Assembly (NCBI RefSeq): GCF_001577525.1
Contig: NZ_CP013015.1
Span: 2,088,102-2,124,353, forward strand
Length of the DNA stretch: 36,252 nt
Reading direction: 5' to 3'
Origin: Candidatus Desulfofervidus auxilii
Lineage (GTDB): Bacteria; Desulfobacterota; Desulfofervidia; Desulfofervidales; Desulfofervidaceae
The stretch's first letter is position 1. Each line of letters begins with the position of its first letter. Of this stretch, positions 3,562 through 18,120 are shown piece by piece. The notes beneath the pieces were generated by a model, which did not search any database, had not been told where the DNA came from, and saw only the letters and a list, made by a program, of their open reading frames with translations. Position numbers and translations under genes: made by a program.

Positions 3562-4302
3562 TCACTCCGTCGCACACCTTGGCCTAGTACAAAGGAGAAC
3601 AAGCTTCCTAGCATCAAGCACTGTGATTACTCCATCGCCATCTAAATCACATGCCTCTCCACAGGCACTATCATTAATAGTTTTATTTCTATCTGCAAGC
3701 AATATATTTAAATCATCTCTATCCACATCACCATCGCCATCAAGATCACCTGTAATTGCAGGCTGTTCATCAGGGTCTTCTCCTTCTTTACAATCTGGGT
3801 CAATGATTCCATCTTTTACTTTATCACAATAACCATCCCATCCCCCAGAAGGACAATCCTCTGGGCAGTTTGCGTAATTTTCAGGAAGACCACATGTTCC
3901 ATCTCCGCATGCAGTTTCTGCAAAGTTCAACCCCATCAGTTCAGTAACCTCTACTTCTGTGCCATCTTCCAATACACAAACAGCACATTCATCTAAATAA
4001 ACACTTGCGCACTTTTTAGCATCTTTTATCGTCTTCATTTCATATCCTTGTCTTACACAATAACTATACTCTTGAGCAACCTTCCCTTTTAGGAAATCCC
4101 ATGCATCAACAGGATTATTCGGAAGCTTGCATGCTCCTCTTATTCCTTTTTCTTCATAGAATGTTATATATTCATAACCAAGCGCCTCACAATAAACTGC
4201 TGCAGGATTCTTCAGTGCAAAGGCAAAATCATTTCCCTTGAATATATATATGATAGCAAATAAAAATATCCAAAACCTCATTATTAAAATTTGCCTATTC
4301 AC
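3562..4302 (-). CDS. Secreted DUF333-like protein with C-terminal dockerin
   Basis: This 246-residue exported protein has an N-terminal hydrophobic signal (about residues 8-30). Next come two DUF333-like, cysteine-rich segments (NPAAVYCEALGYEY at about 33; a second half to about 130). Then comes a CGDGTCGLPENYANCPEDC motif. A C-terminal type I dockerin-like pair of calcium loops follows, GDLDGDGDVDRDDLNILL and CDLDGDGVITVLDARKL. The last residues, LLCTRPRCATE, are shared with two other proteins here. The start is 18 bp after the papain-type protease gene, with GGAGGG just upstream, so the two form one transcript under the second riboswitch. It is probably held outside the cell by a cohesin. 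The ligand of the DUF333 part is unknown. Confidence 0.85.
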   Translation of the reverse strand: MNRQILIMRFWIFLFAIIYIFKGNDFAFALKNPAAVYCEALGYEYITFYEEKGIRGACKLPNNPVDAWDFLKGKVAQEYSYCVRQGYEMKTIKDAKKCASVYLDECAVCVLEDGTEVEVTELMGLNFAETACGDGTCGLPENYANCPEDCPSGGWDGYCDKVKDGIIDPDCKEGEDPDEQPAITGDLDGDGDVDRDDLNILLADRNKTINDSACGEACDLDGDGVITVLDARKLVLLCTRPRCATE

Positions 4303-4320: not shown

Positions 4321-7300
4321 CTAACGCCTATGTATGCCAAATGGATACCACTTGTCTGCCCAGTTAGTCCATTCATGATCATAGGGTATCAATCCATAGC
4401 CATGATCTACCCAGCCAATACCCCAGCTATTCTTGATTATCCAAGAATTTTCATTATCATTCCAGCCTACAATGACTATGCAGTGCCACTCAGGCCAGTC
4501 CCAAGGCGCCCAGCTTGGGCCTCCACATGAAACAATTGGACCATTGCAGACCAGCTCCCTCTTTAACGCTTCAACATTACCTGAGATTGTAGTATGCCCA
4601 TCTATCTGCCATGCCCTTTCTCTCCAATCATCACATCTATCCCAGCACCAAGATATGTCCCATGACCGGTATGGAAAACATGCCTCATCCGGCACCCCCT
4701 CGTCTCTTATGAAATCAAACGCAGCCCATGGAAAGCCGCCCGCACAAGTACCCCACCAAAAGCAAGGAGAAACAAGAGTCTGCTCTGAAAGGTCCAATAT
4801 ATGGACTACATCGCTTTCAATATTATATTTTGCCTCAACAGATCCAATGACTGCAAATGCCCAACAAGAGCCACAACTTTCCTGGTCCTTGACAGGGGTC
4901 ATCCAGTTTGTGCCCCTATAGTTTCTCCAATCAAAACGAGCAGGCAATGTCTCAGCATCACAGAAATCACAGGCATCACCTATGCCATCTTCATCTGTAT
5001 CAGCTTGATCACATAAGGCCATCTCAGGAAGGTCTATAATTCCATCTTCATTTATATCCCTACATGTCACCGAAATGTCAAAAAATGAAGTATCTCCATT
5101 CTTTACATTTGGGCAATTGTCACACAGGTCTCCTACCCTATCACCATCTGAATCTACCTGTCTTGGATTAACAAGATCAGGACAAACATCACAGGCATCA
5201 CCTACACCATCTCCATCTCTGTCTGCCTGTTCACATAGAGCAATTTCTCTATCACTCAAAAATCCATCTCCATTGGGATCACAGGTTATGACAGATGAAG
5301 AATTTGTATTTTTTATTCTAGGGCAGTTATCACAATCTGAACCAAGCCCATCACCATCTGGATCTTCGCTGTAAGCAGCAGGGTTGGGGTCAATGTTATC
5401 CTCACAATGGTCATTATCAGTATCTGTATCAGCTGGATTGGTACCTCTTCTATATTCATCTATATCAAGTAATCCATCACCATCAAAGTCCGTTGTCTCA
5501 TCTGCGGTAGTAAGGCCTCCAAAATTATCTCTTTCCCATTTGTCACATATACCATCATTGTCTTCATCAAATGTACGCACTAGCCAAACATGACTGCCCC
5601 AAACAGTTGTCTTTGGTTTATGCCCCATCTGTCCATATCTCATAGAGATGTACCAGGCATGATTCGTGTATCTGGCATGGGTAGTAGATGTCCAGAAATC
5701 TATACGTGTCCAGTCAGCATTGGTAAATGGATGTCGTTGTGGCAGGGCTGGATTATATTGTGAAGCATCTATCAGACTGAATAACTCCTTACGATTTGGG
5801 AGACGCCAGTCATCATAGGGAGCAGCGCTTTCATCATAGTCCACACAATCATAATTGGTTGGATTAGTATTAAAATCAGCTACTATATCAAGGGCCTCTT
5901 CCCATCGTCTAGCGCCAAAGCAGTCTGCATCCTTAAGCCACATAAGTCCTGTTAAATTATCCATCACTGTGCCGTCTCCTTTGTCAGTGAACCTATGCAA
6001 CGGCCAGTAAACCCCTCTTTTTAAGCCACCATCATCTTTTCCCTCATCAATTGTTGTATTAGGGTCATCACCATAATATGATGCCTTTTGGCCTGTCTTC
6101 CAAAGGTTTGCGGGATAAGCAGGATCAGGATAGTGCCCCTGCCCAGCCCGCACAGGCCAGACATAACGGTAGCCAGACTTGCGAGGGCCTTCGGCTACTG
6201 TAAAAACTCTTCCATCATCCATCCACACAGGCCAAGCATATAGCCAATTATTAGCATCTGTAGTAGAAGACCAGTAAGTGGGATAATCATCAGGAGCGAT
6301 AAATACAGATCGCACGTTTACAAATCCCTGACTCTCCAGCCATTCCCCCTGATCACCTACTTCTGTATTTATGAGGCTTTCAAGCTCAACGATATTAGGC
6401 ACTCTCCAGTCTGTATAACTTGCTGTATAAGAGGCACAGGCTGAAATATTATAGGTCCCATTGTTTATTCCCCCTACAAATTCAAAGGTAGATTCCCAGG
6501 TCATCCTGCCATTATATTCTTCATTGAGCCCTATTGTACCTGCACAATTTGCATCTTTAAGCCACATAAGTCCTGTAAGATTGTCTGTAATGGTGCCATC
6601 TCCATTGTCTATAAACCTAGGTGATGGCCAGGCAACCCCCTTTCTCATACTTCCATCATCTCCAGGGTAATAACTTGTAATTTGTCCTGTCTGTGGCAGT
6701 TTTATAAGACTTTTTTGGGCAACAATATTACACCCTGAGCCTTCATGTGCATCAGTGTCTAGGGGTGTTACAGAGGTTATTCCTGGGGATATACTGGTTT
6801 CTGTTACTATCGCTGAGGTATCTATTTGTACACGGCCAGGGTGAGTAACATCCCACACTCTCCCAATATGTCCAAATATAGCTGGACAATAAGGGGTATT
6901 TCCGCTTGCATCAAGTTTTAATACCCACAGATCCTTACTTCCCATGCCAAGGGATTCAGTGGAACCTACTGTGATATAACCGCCATCTGAGGTCTGCTTG
7001 ATAGAAGAGAGGGTATCACGGGTTCTATCCATCCACCACTCAGGATTTCCATAAGTATTTCCCCAAAGGATATTACCAGATTCATCAAGCTTTAGTATCC
7101 ATGAATAACCTGCTATAGTACCTACCATAATGTAACCCCTGTCTGAAGTCAGCTGAATATCAGTGACAAAAGCAGCTCCTCCATATCCCTTCATCCACTG
7201 GATATCACCAAGAGAGTTAAGCTTTAATGTCCAGACAAAGCCACGGCCAAAAGGCGAACCAGCCACAATAAAACCACCATCTGCGGCCTGATCAACATGG

Positions 7301-8088
7301 GGGCTTAAATCAATAACTTCATTATAATCATAAAGTCCATAAGCCTTCTGCCATATAACATCTCCATCTCTATTAAGCCTCAATAGCCAAAAGTCACCAT
7401 TGCGTGATTGAGTATAGCCTGCTACAATATAGCCATCGTCCTTTCTTCCATCTCCATCATCATCAATCTGCTGGATAGAGTTTAAAATATCGCCTGGGGG
7501 ATTATTACTATCAAAAGCCTTCTGCCATTCAATATTGCCATCATTATCAAGCTTTAGTATCCAAAAATCGCCATCATCACTTGCACCCAAGGACCATGTG
7601 GTACCAGCCAAGATATAACCGTCTGCAGAAGAATCATTCATGGTTTGATGGATAATTACCTCACCACCATCTCTTCCAGCACCACCATATGTTTTTTGCC
7701 ACTGAACATTACCACCTGCATCAAGCTTTAATACCCAAAAATCACCTTTGCCAGCTCCAAAGGAATTAGTTGTGCCTGCCACAATAAAACCACCATCTGT
7801 GGTCTGCTCAATGGAAGAGGGATAATCCGATTCAGCACCACCATAGGTTTTTTGCCACTGAACATTACCACCTGCATCAAGTTTCAATACCCAAAAATCA
7901 CTATTGCCAGCTCCAAAGGAATTAGTTGTGCCTGCCACAATAAAGCCACCATCTGTGGTCTGCTGAACAGAACAAGCACTGTCAATGTCTTTACCGCCAA
8001 GAGTCTTTGCCCACTTTTGTGCAACAGAAATAATAGGCCACAACAAGATAAATATTATGAGAATTATAATCCATTTTAATTTAAACAT
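4321..8088 (-). CDS. Large secreted papain-family (C1A) cysteine protease with propeller, Lcl and TSP3 repeats
   Basis: This 1255-residue protein has a signal peptide (about 1-23) and eight or so blade-like repeats [16 protein letters not shown]...[17 protein letters not shown] (about 28-410). Two DUF1566/Lcl-type domains follow ([13 protein letters not shown] ... YWSSTT at about 480-650, again at about 690-850). Calcium-binding thrombospondin type 3 repeats (DNCP words, about 870-1040) come next, and a papain domain from about 1048 ends the protein. Catalytic residues are present: Gln in [13 protein letters not shown], Cys about 1075, His about 1202 ([10 protein letters not shown]) and Asn about 1220 (IKNSWG). 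No inhibitory propeptide is visible; the repeats may take that place. It has no dockerin, unlike its downstream partner. Ribosome site AGGAGG precedes ATG. A c-di-GMP riboswitch lies in the leader. Confidence 0.9.
7681..7992 (-). repeat. Near-identical 156-bp tandem duplication of one propeller-like repeat
   Basis: Segments 7681-7836 and 7837-7992 are almost identical and are exactly 52 codons long each. They encode [20 protein letters not shown] and [18 protein letters not shown] twice. The other repeats of the same domain are much more diverged, so this is a recent in-frame duplication. Confidence 0.8.
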
Positions 8089-8146: not shown

Positions 8147-8191
8147 AAAAAAGCCGAATTGCCGCTTTATTGCTCCTTCGGCAACCCGGCT
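8147..8191 (-). terminator. Riboswitch-controlled intrinsic terminator 1
   Basis: On the minus strand AGCCGGGTTGCCG (8191-8179) pairs along all 13 positions, two of them G-U, with CGGCAATTCGGCT (8164-8152). The loop is 14 nt and a T-run follows. The 5' arm is the conserved 3' strand of the c-di-GMP aptamer, so aptamer and terminator are mutually exclusive. Confidence 0.85.
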
Positions 8192-8308
8192 GACTTTAAA
8201 ACAGCAAATAGTAATTAGTAATTAGCTATTTTACTAATTACCAGCCACCATCTACCGTTTTTAAGTTCCGTGGCTTTCCGTCTCTACCTCACGGTAGATT
8301 TGGCTTTT
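8177..8308 (-). promoter_or_regulatory. c-di-GMP-I (GEMM) riboswitch 1
   Basis: The minus-strand leader of the protease gene carries the GEMM-I core. P2 is CTACC-GTGA-GGTAG with a GNRA loop. GACGGAAAGCCACGG (8282-8268) matches the family consensus GACGCAAAGCCACGGG. A P3 stem (ACTTAAAA with TTTTAAAGT) and AGCCGGGTTGCCGAA close the aptamer. P1 (AGCCAA with TTGCCG) has one C-C mismatch, present also in the second copy. P3 carries an unusually long insert. Because ligand binding would sequester the 5' arm of the following terminator, c-di-GMP should turn expression on. The family is well established; ligand and direction here are inferred. Confidence 0.85.
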
Positions 8309-8365
8309 TCCAAAGCAAAATATGTACTTGTTAATCAGCTCATTTTAACCTCCTAAATTACTATT

Positions 8366-8917
8366 CTAAAATATTTCATCTAATTTTATTTTTATCCCTT
8401 TAAGGACTAAAGATTCTAAAATATCTGTTTTTTGATAAATTTTTACTGTCTCAAGACCACTTTCTTTTAAACTCATAACTTCAACTTCTTTCTTCTCAAG
8501 ATCTACTAACCAATACTCCTTTACTCCATATTTGCTATAAAGCTTTCTCTTTATGACCCTATCTTTATATTCAGAAGAAGGTGAGATGATTTCAACAATA
8601 AGGTCAGGGGCACCTTGAATATTTCTCTCTGTTATAATATTTAGTCTTTCTTTAGAGATAAACATAATATCTGGCTGAACTACATCTGTTTCTGAAAAAA
8701 CTACATCTAAAGGGGCATGATAGATTTTACCCAAACCATTTTTCTCTACAAATGTACTTATAGTTAACTCTAATCTCCAAGAAATATCCTGATGATATGG
8801 CACTGGCGATGGAACCATATGAACCTCCCCATCAATAATCTCATATCTCTTATCATTAGAAAAATGAAGATAATCTTCATATGTAAACTTTATTGACCTT
8901 TTTACTGCTGTATCCAT
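8366..8917 (-). CDS. Uma2-family (DUF820) putative endonuclease, copy 1
   Basis: The 183-residue protein has the Uma2 layout: YEDYLHFSNDKRYEIIDGE at about 14-32, then VFSETDVVQPDIMFIS, then PDLIVEIISPSSEYKDRVIKRKLYSKYG and the EYWLVD strand. The Asp, Glu and Lys of these segments form the PD-(D/E)XK-like site of this family, whose biological role is largely unknown. A near-identical copy lies at 13840-14394. Compared with it, residues about 38-70 are strongly diverged and one Asp (SSDEYKD) is missing. It lies immediately upstream of riboswitch 1, on the same strand. Start ATG follows GGGGG about 9 bp before it. Confidence 0.9.
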   Translation of the reverse strand: MDTAVKRSIKFTYEDYLHFSNDKRYEIIDGEVHMVPSPVPYHQDISWRLELTISTFVEKNGLGKIYHAPLDVVFSETDVVQPDIMFISKERLNIITERNIQGAPDLIVEIISPSSEYKDRVIKRKLYSKYGVKEYWLVDLEKKEVEVMSLKESGLETVKIYQKTDILESLVLKGIKIKLDEIF

Positions 8918-9035: not shown

Positions 9036-12000
9036 CTACTCCGTCGCACACCTTGGCCTAGTGCAAAGTAAAACTAGCTTCCTAGCATCAAGCACAGTGA
9101 TTATCCCATCACCATCTAAATCACACTCTGGACACACACTTGCTGATTGATTGCGGTAGGTGAGGAGGACGTTTATATCATCTAAATCAATATCACCATC
9201 ACTATCTAGGTCGCCTACTAGAATACCATTGCCTGATAGATAACCAACAACAATAGGTTCATCTGGGTCATCTGATTCAATTGAAAATGTTGCATAAACA
9301 GGGTCAGTACCTGTGGGGGTAAAGGTCACATTTATAGTGCAGGTGGTATCTGGTGCAAGTGTACCTACACAGTTATTGGTCTGAGTGAACTCAGCAGCAC
9401 CACTTATTGAAATATTGCTAATATGAAGGTCTGCAGTTCCAGTATTTTTTACTATTATAGGCTGAGAAGAAGAGGCGCCAATTGTTACGTCAATAAAGAC
9501 AAGATTTCCTCCAAAGGTTATTTCTATATCAGGTTTTAAAATTATTCCATTGCCAGAAAGAGAAACATCTACTGAAGATTCATCAGAATCATTTGAAAGA
9601 ATAGTTAATGTGGCATCTTTGGGACCTTCTGATAAAGGGTTAAAAGTAACAGTAACTGTGCATAATTCATTAGGTCCAAGGGTAGTTGGGCAGTCATTTG
9701 TCATATCAAAATCTGTAGTATTAGAAATTGTTATATTATCAATGTCTAACGGACCATCTCCATTGTTTTTAATAGTTATGGTCTTAGAAGAAGAATTTTC
9801 AACAACTATATCTCCAAAATCAATAGACAAAGGCACTATATCTATTTCAGGTACAGGAAGTTGAGGTGGTTCAGTTGATACTTCCTCACCAATGCCTGAT
9901 AAAGAAATATTAATAGTTGACTCATCAGGGTCATCTGAAGTAATGAGAATAGTTGCATTTACAGAATCAGTAGATAATGGAGCAAATGATATTTCAACTT
10001 CACAACTTTCTTGAGGTGAAAGGATTGAAGGGCAATTATTTGATAAAGCAAAATATTGTGAACCTGATAGTTCAATTAAATCAATGTTTAAATCAACATT
10101 GCCTAAATTTTGAATAGTAAATGTTTTGCTTATTGAACTTCCGATAGTTACTGTTCCAAAATCATAGCTTAATGGAGATACTTCTATATCTGGTAATTGA
10201 TTTGATAGAAAAGAGACTCTTGATACAAAAATGTCCGGTGCAGCATTTGTATCCTCTGGTAATGGTATTAAATTTGTTGCATCCGATTCATAGGCAACAA
10301 AACGGCCATCTCCACTAATAACAGGCCTACTGCTTGGAGCATTAGCTTCACTCCCACAAGGACAAAGATTTACTCTGATGGTCTGTCCGGTTGTAAGGTC
10401 ATGAACAAATATATCTTTTATGTGATTAGTATCATCAGAGACTAAATTATCTGCCCAAGAATCAAATGTTATAAATTGGCCATTTGCACTAATAGAAGGA
10501 TTTGTTGAATCATTATTTCCTTCAACTCCTTCTGAAGAGATGCTTGCTCTTACAATTTTACCTGTTAATCTATCATAGACAAATATATCAGAAGCATCAT
10601 TTGTGTCATCAGAAACAAGATTATTTGCTTTAGATTCAAAAGCAATATATCTACCATCTCTGCTTATAGATGGATTTTTACTTGGAGCATTTGCCTCTTC
10701 TCCTGTAGGAGAAAGGTCTATTCTTTTAATTTGATTATTAGGACGTTCATATACATAGATGCCAATATTTTGATAACCGGATTCACATTCAAAAGCTATG
10801 TACATGCCGTCTTCACTGATAGAAGGATTATAACAATCTGCAACAGCCGGTATTGTACTGTCTCTTTTAGATACCATTTCTAAAGAACCATTTTCAATAT
10901 CATAAACAAAGACATCATCTTGTGTATTGGTATCATCAGGCGTTATTGCATAACCAAAATCAGCACCTGATGAAAAGACTACATATTTTTCATCAGGGCT
11001 AATTGAGAGTTTTCCACGTGGATATACCCTTGGACTGTTAATTATATGATATCTCTGTTTTGCTATTCTATCATACAAAATGATCGCACCTATACTTCTA
11101 TAAACAACATAATGCCCATTTGCGCTGATTGTTACTTCTTCACCATAATCTTCTACTCCATATTCATTTTTTATCACCTCTGTTTCATGAGTCACTCTAT
11201 CATGGACATAAACATGCGGTTCAAGGATGATATAGTTTCCTTCTAGGTCTTTACTCAAGTTGGAAATGAATGCGACATAATGCGCATCTGCACTAATAGA
11301 GGGATTTGATATAGAAGGCATCGGACTTTCGGGACAGGGAGGGAAATCTCGCTCAATACCTTCAAAAAATTGCTCACCAGAACTAAGCACACTTATCCTT
11401 TCTGTATAATAAATATCGCAAAAACCGTCTGATTCAGTAGACACAGTAATAGATGGTCCACTACTAACATTCCCAAATTTATCCATGGCTTCTAATTTAA
11501 ATGTATAAGTTGTTCCAGGTCTTAGACAACTTATATTGAGAGTTGTTTGTGGCCTTATAATGATAATTCCTCCTTCTTCTAAGAGACAAGGTGTTGAATT
11601 TTTGGGTGGGCCATAGATAATTTCGTCTTCAAGATAAACCCTATAATAAACATCTCCACATTCATCATTTGCTTCTGGCCAGCTTAAGACAATGCTTGTA
11701 GAAGTTATATCTGTTACAGTAAGCTCGCTCCCAAAAGGCCATTGGGGCCCATTTTTGTCCATATTTACAGAAAGTGAAGGCCCCCATGTCCACTGGTTGT
11801 CCTCATCTCCTGCGGCAACCATAAAATTATAAGAACTGCAATGGTCAAGATCAGTAACTTCATAAGACAAGACATCTCCTGAGACTTCTGCAATAATGTT
11901 TCCTCCTTGTGAAATACGATAACCAGTTACCCCCACATCATCTTCAGCAGGATCCCAAATAAGGGTTAAGCTTGTATCAGTAATATTTTCCGCCCTCAAG

Positions 12001-13589
12001 GAACTCCCCTCTGGCCATTCAGGAGGATTAGAGGGGGTTTCTATGGTTAAAGAAGGTCCATCAGAAGACATATTCCCTTCGTAATCAAAGGCTTCAACTT
12101 TGAATGTGTATTGTGTTTGTGAAGTTAGGTTTTCTACAGTATAATCACAATGGTATTCACCTGTCCAAAAGCGTTTGCAAACGCTTGCAGAAAGTTCACT
12201 CAAGAGTTCTGAATCTTTAAAAACCCGATAGCCTGCAACACCATAGTCATCAGATGCCTTTGGCCATCTCAACTTTACACTTGTTGAAGAAACATCAATT
12301 GCGGTCAAGGTACTCCCAGAAGGCCATGTTGGTGGTTGTTGGTCTAACTCACAGGCATCTCCTATACCATCCCAGTCTGTATCTAGCTGGTGAGGATTTG
12401 CCACATCAGGGCAGTTGTCTATATTATCAGGGATTCCATCATTGTCAGTATCAATTTGTTGGACTCCTTCACAGGCATCACCTACACCATCTCCATCAGA
12501 ATCTGTCTGGTCAGGATTTGAGACATAAGGGCAATTGTCCTCATTATCAGGGATTCCATCACTATCACTATCAGTAGTACTACTAGGGGCAGAAGGACAT
12601 TGATCGTTAGCAGTATTGTCAAATAGGTCAATCCAGTCAGGCGCTTTATAATACTGATGCCAGTCAGGGGTGGATTTTAATCGATAGTCTGAAGGCTCAC
12701 TAATGGGATTTATGGGATTTAACACATGGCCATCATTTGTCCTGTAAAATGTAATGCCATAACATTTTATTGCAGCCACATCCCCACAAGGACTAAATTC
12801 CCATGAACAACCTCCAGTTAATCCGCTAACAGTCCTTATGGGATTATTGCTAGAAAAAAGATTAACAAGATTCCACTCAACGGTGCCACTATCATCAGGG
12901 ATATAGGCATAAGCAAAGGTGGCATCAAAATAGATAGTTTTTCCTGTGTCAGGATCTTTATAGCCTATATCAGGGACAAAGCCCCATGCAACACCACCAA
13001 ATTTGTCACCCTCATAGCCGATTGGAGAGGCAAAGTTGATGTCTTTTTGGAATTTTAATATACCTGTTTTTGCATCAAAAATAGAAAGATCTACTGTATT
13101 GCCTGATAACACCCCATAAACAAGATAGTTTCCATGGGGACTAAAACAAACTACAACATCATCGCCTGGAGAGAAGTCCTTAGAAGTATTTAAGATTTCA
13201 TGTCCACTGCTGGTCTCATAGAGAATAAGGTGATGTTTGGAATCAAGTGTAGTAATGTAATGGTAGACAAACCTTTCTCCAGTTTTCCGATTAAATCCCC
13301 AGCCATCAGAGTTCTCTCTTGGAATGTAAAATATTGTTTCATAATTGAATTGATCTAAAATCTTTTTGATTTCTATACTATTTTTTGAAACTACTGCCTG
13401 ATATTTAATAGTGCCTGTATCAACAGGATTTTTACACTTTGAAAGACTCCTTTTGTAATCTCCAAAATGTGTGCAATTACAATCAATCCCCTCCCTAAGA
13501 TCTGCCAACGCAGTGGAAAACAGAATTGGGATAAAAATTAATAGAAATATGCAGAAAATAAGCCATTTTTTTAAAATTGCCTTTCCCAT
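9036..13589 (-). CDS. Very large secreted multidomain protein with C-terminal dockerin
   Basis: The chosen start is ATG 13589 (MGKAILKKW, with GGGGGG upstream). The in-frame ATG at 13652 lies inside the riboswitch terminator and would spoil the signal peptide. The 1517-residue product has a signal peptide (about 1-30), a blade-like N-terminal region (to about 320) and TSP3 calcium repeats with DNCP words (about 340-415). Three FN3 domains (about 420-730) follow. A TolB/PD40-like propeller (SISADGRYIAFES-type repeats, about 745-1100) comes next. Three ASH/choice-of-anchor-D beta-sandwich domains (DIEVSPLSYDFGTVTIG type, about 1105-1430) precede a dockerin pair (GDLDSDGDIDLDDINVLL, CDLDGDGIITVLDARKL). 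It ends LLCTRPRCATE. It looks like an adhesive or scaffold protein bound to a cohesin. Confidence 0.9.
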   Translation of the reverse strand: MGKAILKKWLIFCIFLLIFIPILFSTALADLREGIDCNCTHFGDYKRSLSKCKNPVDTGTIKYQAVVSKNSIEIKKILDQFNYETIFYIPRENSDGWGFNRKTGERFVYHYITTLDSKHHLILYETSSGHEILNTSKDFSPGDDVVVCFSPHGNYLVYGVLSGNTVDLSIFDAKTGILKFQKDINFASPIGYEGDKFGGVAWGFVPDIGYKDPDTGKTIYFDATFAYAYIPDDSGTVEWNLVNLFSSNNPIRTVSGLTGGCSWEFSPCGDVAAIKCYGITFYRTNDGHVLNPINPISEPSDYRLKSTPDWHQYYKAPDWIDLFDNTANDQCPSAPSSTTDSDSDGIPDNEDNCPYVSNPDQTDSDGDGVGDACEGVQQIDTDNDGIPDNIDNCPDVANPHQLDTDWDGIGDACELDQQPPTWPSGSTLTAIDVSSTSVKLRWPKASDDYGVAGYRVFKDSELLSELSASVCKRFWTGEYHCDYTVENLTSQTQYTFKVEAFDYEGNMSSDGPSLTIETPSNPPEWPEGSSLRAENITDTSLTLIWDPAEDDVGVTGYRISQGGNIIAEVSGDVLSYEVTDLDHCSSYNFMVAAGDEDNQWTWGPSLSVNMDKNGPQWPFGSELTVTDITSTSIVLSWPEANDECGDVYYRVYLEDEIIYGPPKNSTPCLLEEGGIIIIRPQTTLNISCLRPGTTYTFKLEAMDKFGNVSSGPSITVSTESDGFCDIYYTERISVLSSGEQFFEGIERDFPPCPESPMPSISNPSISADAHYVAFISNLSKDLEGNYIILEPHVYVHDRVTHETEVIKNEYGVEDYGEEVTISANGHYVVYRSIGAIILYDRIAKQRYHIINSPRVYPRGKLSISPDEKYVVFSSGADFGYAITPDDTNTQDDVFVYDIENGSLEMVSKRDSTIPAVADCYNPSISEDGMYIAFECESGYQNIGIYVYERPNNQIKRIDLSPTGEEANAPSKNPSISRDGRYIAFESKANNLVSDDTNDASDIFVYDRLTGKIVRASISSEGVEGNNDSTNPSISANGQFITFDSWADNLVSDDTNHIKDIFVHDLTTGQTIRVNLCPCGSEANAPSSRPVISGDGRFVAYESDATNLIPLPEDTNAAPDIFVSRVSFLSNQLPDIEVSPLSYDFGTVTIGSSISKTFTIQNLGNVDLNIDLIELSGSQYFALSNNCPSILSPQESCEVEISFAPLSTDSVNATILITSDDPDESTINISLSGIGEEVSTEPPQLPVPEIDIVPLSIDFGDIVVENSSSKTITIKNNGDGPLDIDNITISNTTDFDMTNDCPTTLGPNELCTVTVTFNPLSEGPKDATLTILSNDSDESSVDVSLSGNGIILKPDIEITFGGNLVFIDVTIGASSSQPIIVKNTGTADLHISNISISGAAEFTQTNNCVGTLAPDTTCTINVTFTPTGTDPVYATFSIESDDPDEPIVVGYLSGNGILVGDLDSDGDIDLDDINVLLTYRNQSASVCPECDLDGDGIITVLDARKLVLLCTRPRCATE

Positions 13590-13616: not shown

Positions 13617-13658
13617 AAAAAAACCAGATTGCCCTTTTTGCTTCTTCGGCAACCCGGC
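13617..13658 (-). terminator. Riboswitch-controlled intrinsic terminator 2
   Basis: On the minus strand CCGGGTTGCC (13658-13649) pairs with GGCAATCTGG (13633-13624) over 10 positions, two of them G-U, followed by seven T. As in copy 1, the 5' arm is part of the aptamer. Stem sequence differs from copy 1 but pairing is kept, which supports a selected structure. Confidence 0.85.
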
Positions 13659-13782
13659 TAACTTTAAAACAGTAAATAGTAATTAGTAATTAGTAATTAG
13701 CTATTTTACTAATCACAGCCACCATCTACCGTTTTTAAGTTCCGTGGCTTTCCGTCTCTACCTCACGGTAGATTTGGCTTTT
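13647..13782 (-). promoter_or_regulatory. c-di-GMP-I (GEMM) riboswitch 2
   Basis: The aptamer core is the same as at 8177-8308: CTACC-GTGA-GGTAG, GACGGAAAGCCACGG, and AGCCGGGTTGCCGAAG at the 3' end. It lies in the leader of the 1517-residue dockerin protein. The P3 insert has one extra AATTAGT unit compared with copy 1. It is predicted to favour expression when c-di-GMP is bound. Confidence 0.85.
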
Positions 13783-13839
13783 TCCAAAGCAAAATATGTA
13801 TTTGTTAATCAGCTCATTTTAACCTCCTAAATTACTATT

Positions 13840-14394
13840 CTAAAATATTTCATCTAATTTTATTTTTATCCCTTTAAGGACTAAAGATTCTAAAATATCT
13901 GTTTTTTTATAAATTTTTACTGTCTCAAGACCACTTTCTTTTAAACTCATAACTTCAACTTCTTTCTTCTCAAGATCTACTAACCAATACTCCTTTACTC
14001 CATATTTACTATAAAGCTTTCTCTTTATGACTCTGTCTTTATATTCATCAGAAGAAGGTGAGATAATTTCAACAATAAGGTCAGGTGCACCTTGAATATT
14101 TCTCTCTGTTATAATATTTAGTCTTTCTTTAGAGATAAACATAATATCTGGCTGAACTACATCTGTTTCTGAAAAAACTACATCTAAAGGGGCAAAATAA
14201 ACCTTACCTAAAGCATTCTCTTTAACAAACACCCTTAAAACAAATGCTAGATTAGCACAAACATCCTGATGAGCTTCTCCTGGCGATGGAACCATATAAA
14301 TCTCCCCATCAATAATCTCATATCTCTTATCATTAGAAAAATGAAGATAATCTTCATATGTGAACTTTATAGGTTTTTTCACCGCTGTATCCAT
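13840..14394 (-). CDS. Uma2-family (DUF820) putative endonuclease, copy 2
   Basis: The 184-residue protein is a close paralogue of the gene at 8366-8917 and nearly identical outside residues about 37-70, where this copy reads AHQDVCANLAFVLRVFVKEN. It keeps VVQPDIMFIS, GAPDLIVEIISPSSDEYKD and KLYSKYGVKEYWLVD, the expected nuclease-fold segments. It stands between a dockerin gene upstream and riboswitch 2 downstream. Uma2 genes are often scattered through genomes in multiple copies; a functional link to the dockerin genes is not shown. Confidence 0.9.
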   Translation of the reverse strand: MDTAVKKPIKFTYEDYLHFSNDKRYEIIDGEIYMVPSPGEAHQDVCANLAFVLRVFVKENALGKVYFAPLDVVFSETDVVQPDIMFISKERLNIITERNIQGAPDLIVEIISPSSDEYKDRVIKRKLYSKYGVKEYWLVDLEKKEVEVMSLKESGLETVKIYKKTDILESLVLKGIKIKLDEIF

Positions 14395-14513: not shown

Positions 14514-17294
14514 CTACTCCGTCGCACACCTTGGTCTTGTACAAAGAAGCACAAGCTTTCTTGCATCAAGCACTGTGATTACTCCATCACCATCTATATC
14601 ACACTCTGGACATGCACTTGCTGGTTGATTGCGGTGGGTAAGGAGGATGTTTAAGTCGTTTTGGTCAATGTCACCATCATTGTCGAGGTCGCCCTGAATA
14701 GCTACTTTTCTAACACCCAATTGAAAGATAGAGAAATGGGTTACATCAATCATAATCAACATGTTCTCTTCATCAACTGTTTTTGGGCCTTCTACCAATT
14801 CCCAAGTTAAAGTACTTGTGTTAAAAGTATAAACATCTAATTCTTGCGGGTCACTTACACCTGCATTTTCTAAGTCCTCCTCTGTGTATGGGATCTTTAT
14901 AGTTACAGGTTTATTAAACACAAGGCCTTCTGGGCCAAAGTGCACTGGTGAACCAATGCCTACTATGTCTTCTGGAAATGGGGGGATTTCCTCTACAAGC
15001 TCGCTGATGGCAATAATCGTATTTTCTGATAGGGCATCTGCAGGGATTTCAACTTGGGCACCTAGAATCCCACTTGATGTATCTGTAACCAAGACAGTTC
15101 CACCATCAGAGCCAATTACCTGCTGTCCAACTATTTTCAGTGAATAGGGATAAGCAGCTAGGGTAAAATCTATGTCAGGTGTCTCATGCGGGGAATCCAC
15201 TTTTACATCTCTGCTTCCCATAACATACCCTGAGGCAATTGCCTGAACAACGTAATTACCTGATGGCAGGCCATTGATAGTATAACTTCCATCGGGCTTA
15301 GAGTTGGCTCCACTCCCTATTAAATGAGGATCTACAGGGAAGGCATAAAGGTTGGCACCTGCTATGGGAGTTTTCCCATCCTCCTCATAGACATGTCCAG
15401 ATATTGAACCAGGCCTTGCTAAATAGAAATCTATCCCAGAAGTTTCTTTATGAAATTCAACTTCAACCGGAGTAGCATAAGCCATATTATAAGCATCTTG
15501 GTACCATTCAGGAATATAACCATGGGTGTGAAATACATTTATATAATAAGTTCCTGGTTTCAAATTTATTTTATAGCTGCCATCATAAGAGGTAACAGGA
15601 GCAGGAGTAACTCCATCACCATTTGGTAAACATGCACCTAACTGCACTCCGCTTATAGGTTCTCCTGTCTCTTCATCAAATACATGGCCAGTTATGCAAC
15701 CTCCTTCATCAAGGGTAAAGTTGATATTGTTAGTGTCAACTCCTGCACTAACAGGGACATGGTCGGCTGTACTCCTGGTGTACTTAGAATTATAAAATTC
15801 ACCTGCATACCAGCCTGGAAGATCTTCACCAATCCTTACTGTATAACTAACCGGAGGAAGGCCTTCTATAGTATAACTTCCATCTTCATTAGACATAGCA
15901 CCTATACCTTCAAAACCTCCACTAGTCGGGTCAGCTATTATACTTACCTGAATGGGAGTAATGCCATCACTGGCATAGATATGCCCGGATATTGAACCGG
16001 CAAATTCCAAATTGATATCAATGTTTGGTGTATTGTTAGGTGGAGTAACTATTACACTTGTAGCATTATTCCAACCATAAACAGAATCATAATATCTCAA
16101 TTTGGCATATCCAGGGGCTTCTGCCCTGACCTTATATTGACCAAGGGATAGGCCGGTAATGACATAGCTTCCATCTGAGGCAGTAGTGGTACAAAAACCT
16201 TCATCAAAAAAGTATTTACTTGGGCGTACGAATACCTCTGCACCAGCTATTGGGGTTATCCCATTACTTTGATAGACATGTCCAGAGATTGAGCCCCCTT
16301 CAGTAAGGTCAAAGTCAATATTAGCAATATGTGAGCCTTCTGTGACATTGATGATCTTTGCCTCATGAGAAGGGGTTACATTATCGTAATATTCCCTAGC
16401 ATAACCAGAGGCACTGACTCTAACCTTATAGTCACCAGGGGGGAGAATGATATTATAACTGCCGTCAGATGAAGTTATTGCTTGACCCCAACCTGCCCCT
16501 TCACTGACACCTATTGCCTGAACCTTCGCTCCTCCAATAGGGGTCACCCTATCTATCTGATAGACATGTCCAGAGATTATTCCTATGGTCGCATGGCCAT
16601 ATGTCTTTCCACCAATACTGGCAAATGTAAGCTCTCTTACTCTTGTCTCTGTTTCGGTGCCTTCTTCTGGTTCGTATTCTGTCTCTGTAGAGATGCTCTT
16701 AACCTCTCCTACCCCTTCAGCTAACCAAAAGGTCCTTTCAATAGTCCCATAATCTCCTTCACTTTCTTGCCAAGAGATATTTTCAGTAAATTTTAAACAA
16801 TTGGTAAAAGTGCCTGCTGGAACAGTTATATCTTCCAAACCTACTAAAGTAAGTGTTCTACTACCACTGCCAGTTTCATCAAACTGGCCATTTTCATATT
16901 CACTATAAGAGACAGAAGCTGTAATCTGTTGACCTACCTCCATTTGGAGAGGAAATAAAAGTACTGGTGAATCAAAGACCATGTAGTCACCTTCATCATC
17001 TACCTCTCCCTCTTTATACCATTTTAGTCCCTCTCCATCCCAGGCCAAACATTCATAGTCCTCATTGGTTATTTTTCTCATAGTTTCTATGCCATTTATT
17101 GTTTCGGTACCGTTTATAATCGTTATTTCAGTATAATTTTCTCCATCTTCACTTCCTGAGTATACCCAGTAGTCACCCTGTTCCATAGGAAGATACTGGC
17201 TCATTTGATAGGGTGTTTGAGCATTTAGATTTCCTATGACTAGGAAAAATAAAAATAGAAAAGATAAACCTAAGGAAAAAACTTTCCTTTTCAT
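14514..17294 (-). CDS. Secreted protein with carboxypeptidase-regulatory repeats, ZU5-like domain and dockerin
   Basis: The 926-residue product has a signal peptide (about 1-26) and an N-terminal beta-rich domain (about 27-230, YLPMEQGDYWVYSGS ... VPAGTFTNCLKF). Five or six CarboxypepD_reg-like beta-sandwich repeats (SISGHVY...GITPIAGAEV...DGSYVITGLSLGQYKVRA, about 235-690) follow. A ZU5-like domain (IGSDGGTVLV ... VEIPADALSE, about 700-850) and a dockerin pair (GDLDNDGDIDQNDLNILL, CDIDGDGVITVLDARKL) come last. It ends LLCTRPRCATE. These repeats suggest a surface structural or adhesion protein. It follows the cohesin gene on the same strand, with a 208-bp leader containing a hairpin but no GEMM aptamer. 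GGAGG precedes ATG. Confidence 0.9.
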   Translation of the reverse strand: MKRKVFSLGLSFLFLFFLVIGNLNAQTPYQMSQYLPMEQGDYWVYSGSEDGENYTEITIINGTETINGIETMRKITNEDYECLAWDGEGLKWYKEGEVDDEGDYMVFDSPVLLFPLQMEVGQQITASVSYSEYENGQFDETGSGSRTLTLVGLEDITVPAGTFTNCLKFTENISWQESEGDYGTIERTFWLAEGVGEVKSISTETEYEPEEGTETETRVRELTFASIGGKTYGHATIGIISGHVYQIDRVTPIGGAKVQAIGVSEGAGWGQAITSSDGSYNIILPPGDYKVRVSASGYAREYYDNVTPSHEAKIINVTEGSHIANIDFDLTEGGSISGHVYQSNGITPIAGAEVFVRPSKYFFDEGFCTTTASDGSYVITGLSLGQYKVRAEAPGYAKLRYYDSVYGWNNATSVIVTPPNNTPNIDINLEFAGSISGHIYASDGITPIQVSIIADPTSGGFEGIGAMSNEDGSYTIEGLPPVSYTVRIGEDLPGWYAGEFYNSKYTRSTADHVPVSAGVDTNNINFTLDEGGCITGHVFDEETGEPISGVQLGACLPNGDGVTPAPVTSYDGSYKINLKPGTYYINVFHTHGYIPEWYQDAYNMAYATPVEVEFHKETSGIDFYLARPGSISGHVYEEDGKTPIAGANLYAFPVDPHLIGSGANSKPDGSYTINGLPSGNYVVQAIASGYVMGSRDVKVDSPHETPDIDFTLAAYPYSLKIVGQQVIGSDGGTVLVTDTSSGILGAQVEIPADALSENTIIAISELVEEIPPFPEDIVGIGSPVHFGPEGLVFNKPVTIKIPYTEEDLENAGVSDPQELDVYTFNTSTLTWELVEGPKTVDEENMLIMIDVTHFSIFQLGVRKVAIQGDLDNDGDIDQNDLNILLTHRNQPASACPECDIDGDGVITVLDARKLVLLCTRPRCATE

Positions 17295-17502: not shown

Positions 17503-18120
17503 TTAACCCCTTTTCTTCCTCCTCAAAATCCCAATGCCACCTAAACCAAAGCCAAAAAGAATAAAAGTTGCAGGTACAGGGACAGGGGAAACACTACCAC
17601 TTTCTCGTTCAAAGTCTAAAGCATTTCCCAATTCATCAGATAGTCTGCTTGCAACAAATGGAGGATTTGGGTCAACTATCTCCAAAGGACTTGTGCCAAC
17701 ACTTAAAGTATCAAAGGTCAAGGTGGCTAGGACAAAGCTAGGTGCTTGTTGGTCTACTAAGTCAGCAGCTGGGTTCCAAGAGAGCTCAAAGATTTCCTCG
17801 ATGCCCGGAGCATAAGTAGACACATCGTAGTCATTTATTCCCCAAAACAGAACATCTAACTGATCACCTAAATCTGGATCTCCAAAAGAGACATCAGAAA
17901 GGGCTAAAATTGTTGGGTCATACTCTATAAACAAATCAAAACCAGCCAAAGAAGGAGAAGTTCCATCTCCCAAACCTGAAATCACCAAATCAACACTCAC
18001 TGGCTCGCCAACTGGCACAGTTTGAGAACCAGGCTCAAAGCCAATGGTAGCAGCAAAGGCACTAAGGCTAAAAAACACTACAAACCCTAAAACCACTGCG
18101 GAAAACAATACCTTTTTCAT
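17503..18120 (-). CDS. Cohesin-domain protein with PEP-CTERM anchor
   Basis: The 205-residue exported protein has a signal peptide (about 1-23). One cohesin-like beta-sandwich follows (IGFEPGSQTVPVGEPVSVDL ... LAGFDLFIEYDPTILAL ... LATLTFDTLSVGTSPLEI, about 25-150). A C-terminal exosortase-sorting signal ends it: VPVPAT, a hydrophobic helix FILFGFGLGGIGIL and RRKKRG. The motif is a VPVPAT variant of the usual VPEPA. PEP-CTERM proteins are cut and released or anchored by an exosortase, not encoded in this window. Being first in a run with three dockerin genes, it is the natural receptor for them. AGGAGG precedes ATG. A single cohesin makes it a surface receptor, not a multi-site scaffoldin. 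Confidence 0.9.
   Translation of the reverse strand: MKKVLFSAVVLGFVVFFSLSAFAATIGFEPGSQTVPVGEPVSVDLVISGLGDGTSPSLAGFDLFIEYDPTILALSDVSFGDPDLGDQLDVLFWGINDYDVSTYAPGIEEIFELSWNPAADLVDQQAPSFVLATLTFDTLSVGTSPLEIVDPNPPFVASRLSDELGNALDFERESGSVSPVPVPATFILFGFGLGGIGILRRKKRG

Follow-up and report, generated by a model that had tools for sequence, protein, structure and literature searches.

What does the leader that precedes the gene of a 1517-residue dockerin protein do in HotSeep-1, the thermophilic sulfate-reducing bacterial partner of ANME-1, which grows in clumps with methane-eating archaea? This leader lies in a stretch of 36,252 nucleotides analysed here as a whole (the window) and taken from the single contig of 2,540,211 bp that makes up the genome of Candidatus Desulfofervidus auxilii, or HotSeep1 (GCA_001577525.1, PMC10553843). 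A sequence-only reading had proposed a second c-di-GMP-I riboswitch at this place. Indeed, cmscan run over the whole window, with the RF01051 gathering score of 35 bits as reference, returned an aptamer well above this score, followed by an intrinsic terminator and by the expected open reading frame (Table 1), whose ATG at 13589 begins a signal-like N-terminus about 27 nt downstream of the switch. The segment singled out by that reading ends at 13617, exactly where the U-run of the terminator ends. We consider it highly probable that the leader is a c-di-GMP-I transcriptional ON switch, carried by a triplicated cassette, which turns on sets of dockerin surface proteins as c-di-GMP rises.

Table 1. 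Features of the switched cluster, with coordinates in the window unless marked as genome.
Feature	Coordinates	Strand	Remarks
246-aa DUF333 and dockerin protein	3562..4302	minus	second gene behind switch B, 18-nt gap
1255-aa secreted protein	4321..8088	minus	two Lcl_C, TSP3, papain-type protease domain; first gene behind switch B
Intrinsic terminator, copy B	8147..8190	minus	12-bp stem, U6
c-di-GMP-I aptamer, copy B	8177..8314	minus	RF01051 66.1 bits
Uma2-family gene, cassette B, 183 aa	8366..8917	minus	PF05685, 7.7e-36
1517-aa secreted protein	9036..13589	minus	TSP3, fn3, PD40, three choice-of-anchor-D/ASH Ig-like domains, C-terminal dockerin
Intrinsic terminator, copy A	13617..13658	minus	5' arm 13658-13648; 3' arm 13633-13623; U7 13623-13617
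c-di-GMP-I aptamer, copy A, long P3 arm	13645..13788	minus	RF01051 68.3 bits, E 1.7e-11
Weak sigma-70-like site TTTAGA-17-TAAAAT	13816..13844	minus	9/12 matches; between Uma2 and aptamer A
Uma2-family gene, cassette A, 184 aa	13840..14394	minus	PF05685, 8.3e-38; upstream of switch A
926-aa CarboxypepD_reg repeat protein	14514..17294	minus	C-terminal dockerin; upstream of cassette A; no own switch
205-aa PEP-CTERM cohesin	17503..18120	minus	first gene of cluster; PEP-CTERM 7.5e-5; Cohesin 19.3 bits
Cassette copy A	13.6k
Cassette copy B	8.2k
Cassette copy C	genome 2,428.9k (at 2,428,900)

The Rfam model search found four c-di-GMP-I aptamers in the genome, three of which sit in a repeated cassette that runs from the 3' end of a dockerin gene through a Uma2 gene to the aptamer and the terminator. 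Copies A and B of this cassette belong to the window and copy C, with the third switch, lies beyond it. The three aptamers share a GNRA tetraloop on P2 (a GUGA loop in each), and the P3 arm is much more stable than its shuffles (z=-7.7 in copy A, z=-8.6 in copy B). The P3 arm of copy A (window 13671-13712) contains tandem CTAATTA-type heptads, whose number varies between copies, so that the P3 arms are of unequal length. Using the Uma2-plus-leader DNA as a query against the genome, we recovered three full copies, with identities of 100, 91 and 87%, as well as copy D, which does not have the leader. When aligned, cassettes A, B and C have in common the coding 3' end of the dockerin gene, a spacer, Uma2, about 50 nt, the aptamer and the terminator; homology ends after the U-run, beyond which unrelated sequence and a different secreted-protein gene or operon are found in each. 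Copy D is nearly identical to copy C until the Uma2 stop, diverges thereafter and has no aptamer. A shared cassette followed by unrelated downstream DNA indicates that the switch was copied together with Uma2 and thereby joined to different genes. The N-terminal third of Uma2 (window 14190-14394 and 8720-8917) differs by 22-25% between copies and the remainder by only 2-5%; from the sequence, this N-terminus reads as mosaic or diversified. The fourth aptamer (L001, genome 1646390-1646479, minus strand) is placed ahead of a 712-aa beta-helix protein. Its leader has no U-run and its ribosome-binding site falls within a strong hairpin, so this switch is probably translational and may act at the ribosome-binding site.

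The genes behind the three cassette switches differ, and the three units are connected by their dockerins. In unit B, the dockerin is carried by the 246-aa protein and the adjacent 1255-aa gene has none, and switch C precedes a 2648-aa transglutaminase/PKD protein with a C-terminal dockerin. A profile of the dockerin tail found five intact members in the genome, three of which follow a switch either immediately or in second position, together with one fragment of 26 aa. This 26-codon remnant (genome 2433889-2433957), located upstream of the second cohesin gene, points to recombination between the 3' ends of dockerin genes. The first gene of both clusters encodes a PEP-CTERM cohesin (205 and 204 aa, 77% identical) and the next one a dockerin protein; neither these two upstream dockerin genes nor the cohesin genes have a switch. 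Taken alone, the 1517-aa protein gave no Pfam dockerin match; its tail shares 78% identity with the dockerin of the 246-aa protein, itself above the Pfam cut-off, and has the two calcium-binding repeats and the predicted fold of type I dockerins (PF00404). Four aligned dockerin tails have in common ...ITVLDARK.VL.CTRPRCATE. The 205-aa cohesin reaches 19.3 bits against PF00963, below the cut-off of 24.1. As a sequence search of the PDB with the dockerin and cohesin profiles returned nothing, predicted folds were compared instead: dockerins came first among the PDB fold matches of the dockerin model (pLDDT 76; 2y3n_B, probability 1.00, E 0.026), and cohesins accounted for nearly all of the 41 leading PDB hits of the 205-aa protein, modelled with a pLDDT of only 56 (best E 1.5e-4). 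A third cohesin-like match (30.6 bits, genome 593564-593692) is situated outside both clusters.

On these modelled folds, the common dockerin C-termini and the PEP-CTERM cohesin that heads the cluster, we consider it well founded that the switched proteins belong to one assembly, in which dockerins would bind cohesins. The sequence-only reading had likewise assigned the second switch to a different gene of the same putative assembly, and this holds. Its further statement that two structural components share one input was too narrow, since there are three switched units, one of which starts with a papain-family protease; the shared type of switch stands, and common control by the ligand would follow from it. 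A single signal, c-di-GMP, would thus probably activate several candidate adhesins together.

The gene order of the window also suggests, tentatively, that switches A and B are consecutive gates in one long operon, in which the genes behind B would need read-through twice and expression would follow a steeper graded order. The order is cohesin, 926 aa, Uma2, switch A, 1517 aa, Uma2, switch B, 1255 aa and 246 aa, with all seven genes on one strand; a search of both intergenic gaps ahead of the Uma2 genes gave no terminator-like site, and a TTGACA...TATATA-like site can be read before the cohesin gene. The sigma-70-like site of Table 1, found as well in copy B (8370-8342) and in copy C, bears on both sides of this reading: such promoter-like sites inside the cassettes score no better than shuffles, but the site is suitably spaced before the aptamer, is kept in all three copies, and has lost its -10 part in copy D, which has no aptamer. 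Each copy also contains AGGAGGTTAAAATGAGCTGA (window 13802-13828 and 8328-8354, minus strand; likewise in copy C), where a good Shine-Dalgarno sequence precedes a Met-Ser-stop mini-ORF before the aptamer. It was weighed as a leader peptide and we make no such claim, because it overlaps the promoter-like TAAAAT hexamer and because the copies are recent. Consecutive gates are compatible with the c-di-GMP-I ON switch proposed above and would refine it. A broader and rather unlikely extension is that the Uma2-riboswitch cassette spread in this one genome as a portable ON gate tying successive dockerin proteins to c-di-GMP, with the two gates of the window in series in one operon, so that the array of proteins presented to the archaeal partner would be assembled in a fixed order as c-di-GMP rises.

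The direction of the ON switch is predicted from a strand that aptamer and terminator share. The conserved aptamer 3' strand, GCCGGGUUGCC, doubles as the 5' arm of the terminator in copies A, B and C. The terminator of copy A (-18.0 kcal/mol) is more stable than its dinucleotide shuffles (z=-3.5; none of 200 equally stable), as is that of copy B (-21.2 kcal/mol, z=-4.7). The ligand-free minimum free energy structure of the three full leaders is the terminator state, and a transcript truncated ahead of the terminator 3' arm adopts the aptamer fold with P1, both at 37 and at 60 °C. Because one strand serves both structures, the bound aptamer and the terminator are mutually exclusive and an ON switch is predicted. 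The same exclusion characterizes the transcriptional ON platform of the pilM GEMM-I switch from Geobacter metallireducens, whose terminator incorporates the 3' strand of the aptamer (T + A + H, PMC9262584). Without ligand, the GCCGGGUUGCC strand would quit the aptamer and pair with the downstream strand, forming the terminator ahead of the 1517-aa dockerin gene; with c-di-GMP bound, this strand, including the ligand-pairing cytosine, would be kept in the aptamer and transcription would go on. We infer this direction from the strand logic and from folding-energy models, which by their nature cannot prove it. That the leader binds c-di-GMP and acts as an OFF switch, or mainly on translation, is in our opinion very unlikely: both ON and OFF switches are known in class I (PMC6366702) and L001, without a U-run, seems to work at the ribosome-binding site in the same genome, but the strand shared by aptamer and terminator in copies A, B and C makes their coexistence impossible. 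We therefore retain the transcriptional ON switch, by which rising c-di-GMP would activate three groups of surface proteins whose dockerins would bind cohesins anchored through PEP-CTERM.

The contacts specific for c-di-GMP are G20, A47 and C92 in Vc2 numbering. In the window copies, the equivalents of G20 and A47 of the Vc2 aptamer are G and A, and the ligand-pairing C, read from the model alignment of copy A, lies in the conserved UUGCC strand. The genome encodes three intact GGDEF proteins with the canonical Asp and one with a degenerate motif; a search for EAL phosphodiesterases gave none in the genome. That the aptamer would sense another cyclic dinucleotide (3',3'-cGAMP) or would be a c-di-GMP-I-GGC variant seems slightly less probable still than an OFF switch. 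Fold variants recognizing cGAMP do occur in related bacteria such as Geobacter (PMC9262584, PMC8835794), and the GGC model (RF03167) also matches L001 and L002 above its cut-off; however, the RF01051 bit score is higher at these loci, and the intact GGDEF proteins carry Asp and not the Ser of Hypr enzymes, which argues for c-di-GMP rather than cGAMP. Moreover, the GGC variant is defined by a G replacing A47, with the consensus GACGCGAA, and the window copies have A at this position, which places them outside this class; they are likewise outside the cGAMP riboswitches (GEMM-Ib), position 20 being G and not A.

With the predicted c-di-GMP-responsive ON switch thus retained, its copies can be compared for traces of selection. 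No c-di-GMP-I aptamer was found in four members of the same family and a relative from the same order gave one weak match, so the three copies of this genome and relatives from the phylum were compared instead. Switch A had been described from the sequence alone as a diverged duplicate: the copies do derive from the same source, and divergence is confined to regions outside the aptamer core (P3 arm and 3' side of the terminator), with 0% difference among copies in the 47 nt of the aptamer 5' part and in the terminator 5' arm. Between copies, the spacer before the aptamer differs by 2-6%, the terminator loop by 15-67% and the terminator 3' arm by 27-54%. In this 3' arm, 6 of the 11 positions vary among the three copies and all 11 pairs are kept in every copy, the changes being only C to U or the reverse opposite G, or A to G or the reverse opposite U. 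When six changes, this number being held fixed, were placed at random, all pairs were kept with p ~0.0015 for a transition share of 0.68 (240/353 in the cassette) and p 0.004 for a share of 0.8. The earlier argument that changed terminator sequence with retained pairing reflects selection is supported by these values and needs rewording, since the aptamer leaves the 5' arm no freedom to change, so that changes in the 3' arm are one-sided and wobble-compatible, not classic compensatory pairs. The sole two-sided change affects one outer terminator pair, which reads G-C in B and A-U in C and is mismatched (G.G) in A. Since the copies are recent, identity of the aptamer alone is weak evidence of selection. 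That only the aptamer is real, as a passenger of a recent duplication of the Uma2 cassette whose leader no longer switches, fits the recent copies and their 2-6% spacer divergence but is the least probable alternative of all, as every terminator pair is kept in the strongly diverged 3' arm.

The aptamer and terminator layout of this ON switch is repeated in eight other Desulfobacterota leaders (L020, two in L030, L079, L080, L081, L093 and L104) and is therefore an ordinary platform for the phylum, in which c-di-GMP-I aptamers were found in 169 of 395 genomes. An exact-pattern scan of the genome contigs with the aptamer core gave no match outside its own genome. In an independent case, the Desulfobacula sp. 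MAG that contains L104 (NZ_JAQYWD010000032.1), three elements stand in a row: a 1005-aa protein whose dockerin tail is of the same kind, a PEP-CTERM cohesin with 39% identity to that of the window, and an aptamer; this aptamer (6850-6933) lies 20 nt beyond the cohesin and has the same type of terminator, and the frame behind it is open for 64 codons only. No switch was found beside other dockerin/cohesin pairs in the stretches examined from five further genomes (G238, G006, G080, G269 and G289). Given how widespread the aptamers are, and as the examined surroundings of most other dockerin/cohesin pairs in the phylum yielded none, the association is occasional and does not constitute a rule. 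Pfam gave no confirmation for a dockerin-like ORF that follows a switch in G036 (L016). In G080 (C35, 54984-59956), four c-di-GMP-I aptamers about 1.6 kb apart lie ahead of seemingly tandem paralogous secreted proteins.

Several known systems share parts of this arrangement. Like the pilM switch, the leaders described here combine a transcriptional ON logic, exclusive aptamer and terminator and sequestration of the ligand-pairing C in the terminator; unlike pilM, which senses cGAMP and controls pilus genes, they have the c-di-GMP-type G20, dockerin targets and a far longer P3 arm (PMC9262584). The Bc2 switch of Bacillus thuringiensis cap is also a class I ON switch that acts by read-through on a surface adhesion protein and on aggregation, but it controls a single gene for an unrelated adhesin, with neither a cohesin/dockerin system nor a duplicated cassette (PMC4933901). 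Clostridioides difficile likewise has several riboswitches in its genome, which coordinate a secreted protease with surface adhesins; its adhesins are turned on by class II switches and its protease is turned off by class I, whereas the three class I copies described here are all predicted to be ON (PMC6366702). In HotSeep-1 itself, cohesin/dockerin proteins have been named candidate partner adhesins on the basis of expression data, in a study of cohesin/dockerin adhesins of syntrophic sulfate reducers that concerns the same organism and the same protein class and does not mention c-di-GMP or riboswitches (PMC10553843). Our literature search, which covered papers outside subscription journals, found none linking Desulfofervidus with c-di-GMP or a c-di-GMP riboswitch with dockerins. 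Both the riboswitch class and the platform are thus ordinary, and what is new is the target set, the spread within one genome and the biological setting.

How consortia of sulfate reducers and ANME are regulated and built is an open question, for which no control of cohesin/dockerin proteins has been proposed in the literature searched. The cassettes of Candidatus Desulfofervidus auxilii provide a natural example of a riboswitch copied ahead of new genes, with a fixed aptamer and a terminator arm that drifts within the limits of pairing. They also offer a testable link, namely that c-di-GMP would turn on most of the dockerin set in this ANME-1 partner, and the switched dockerin proteins may plausibly serve aggregation or the consortium with ANME-1.
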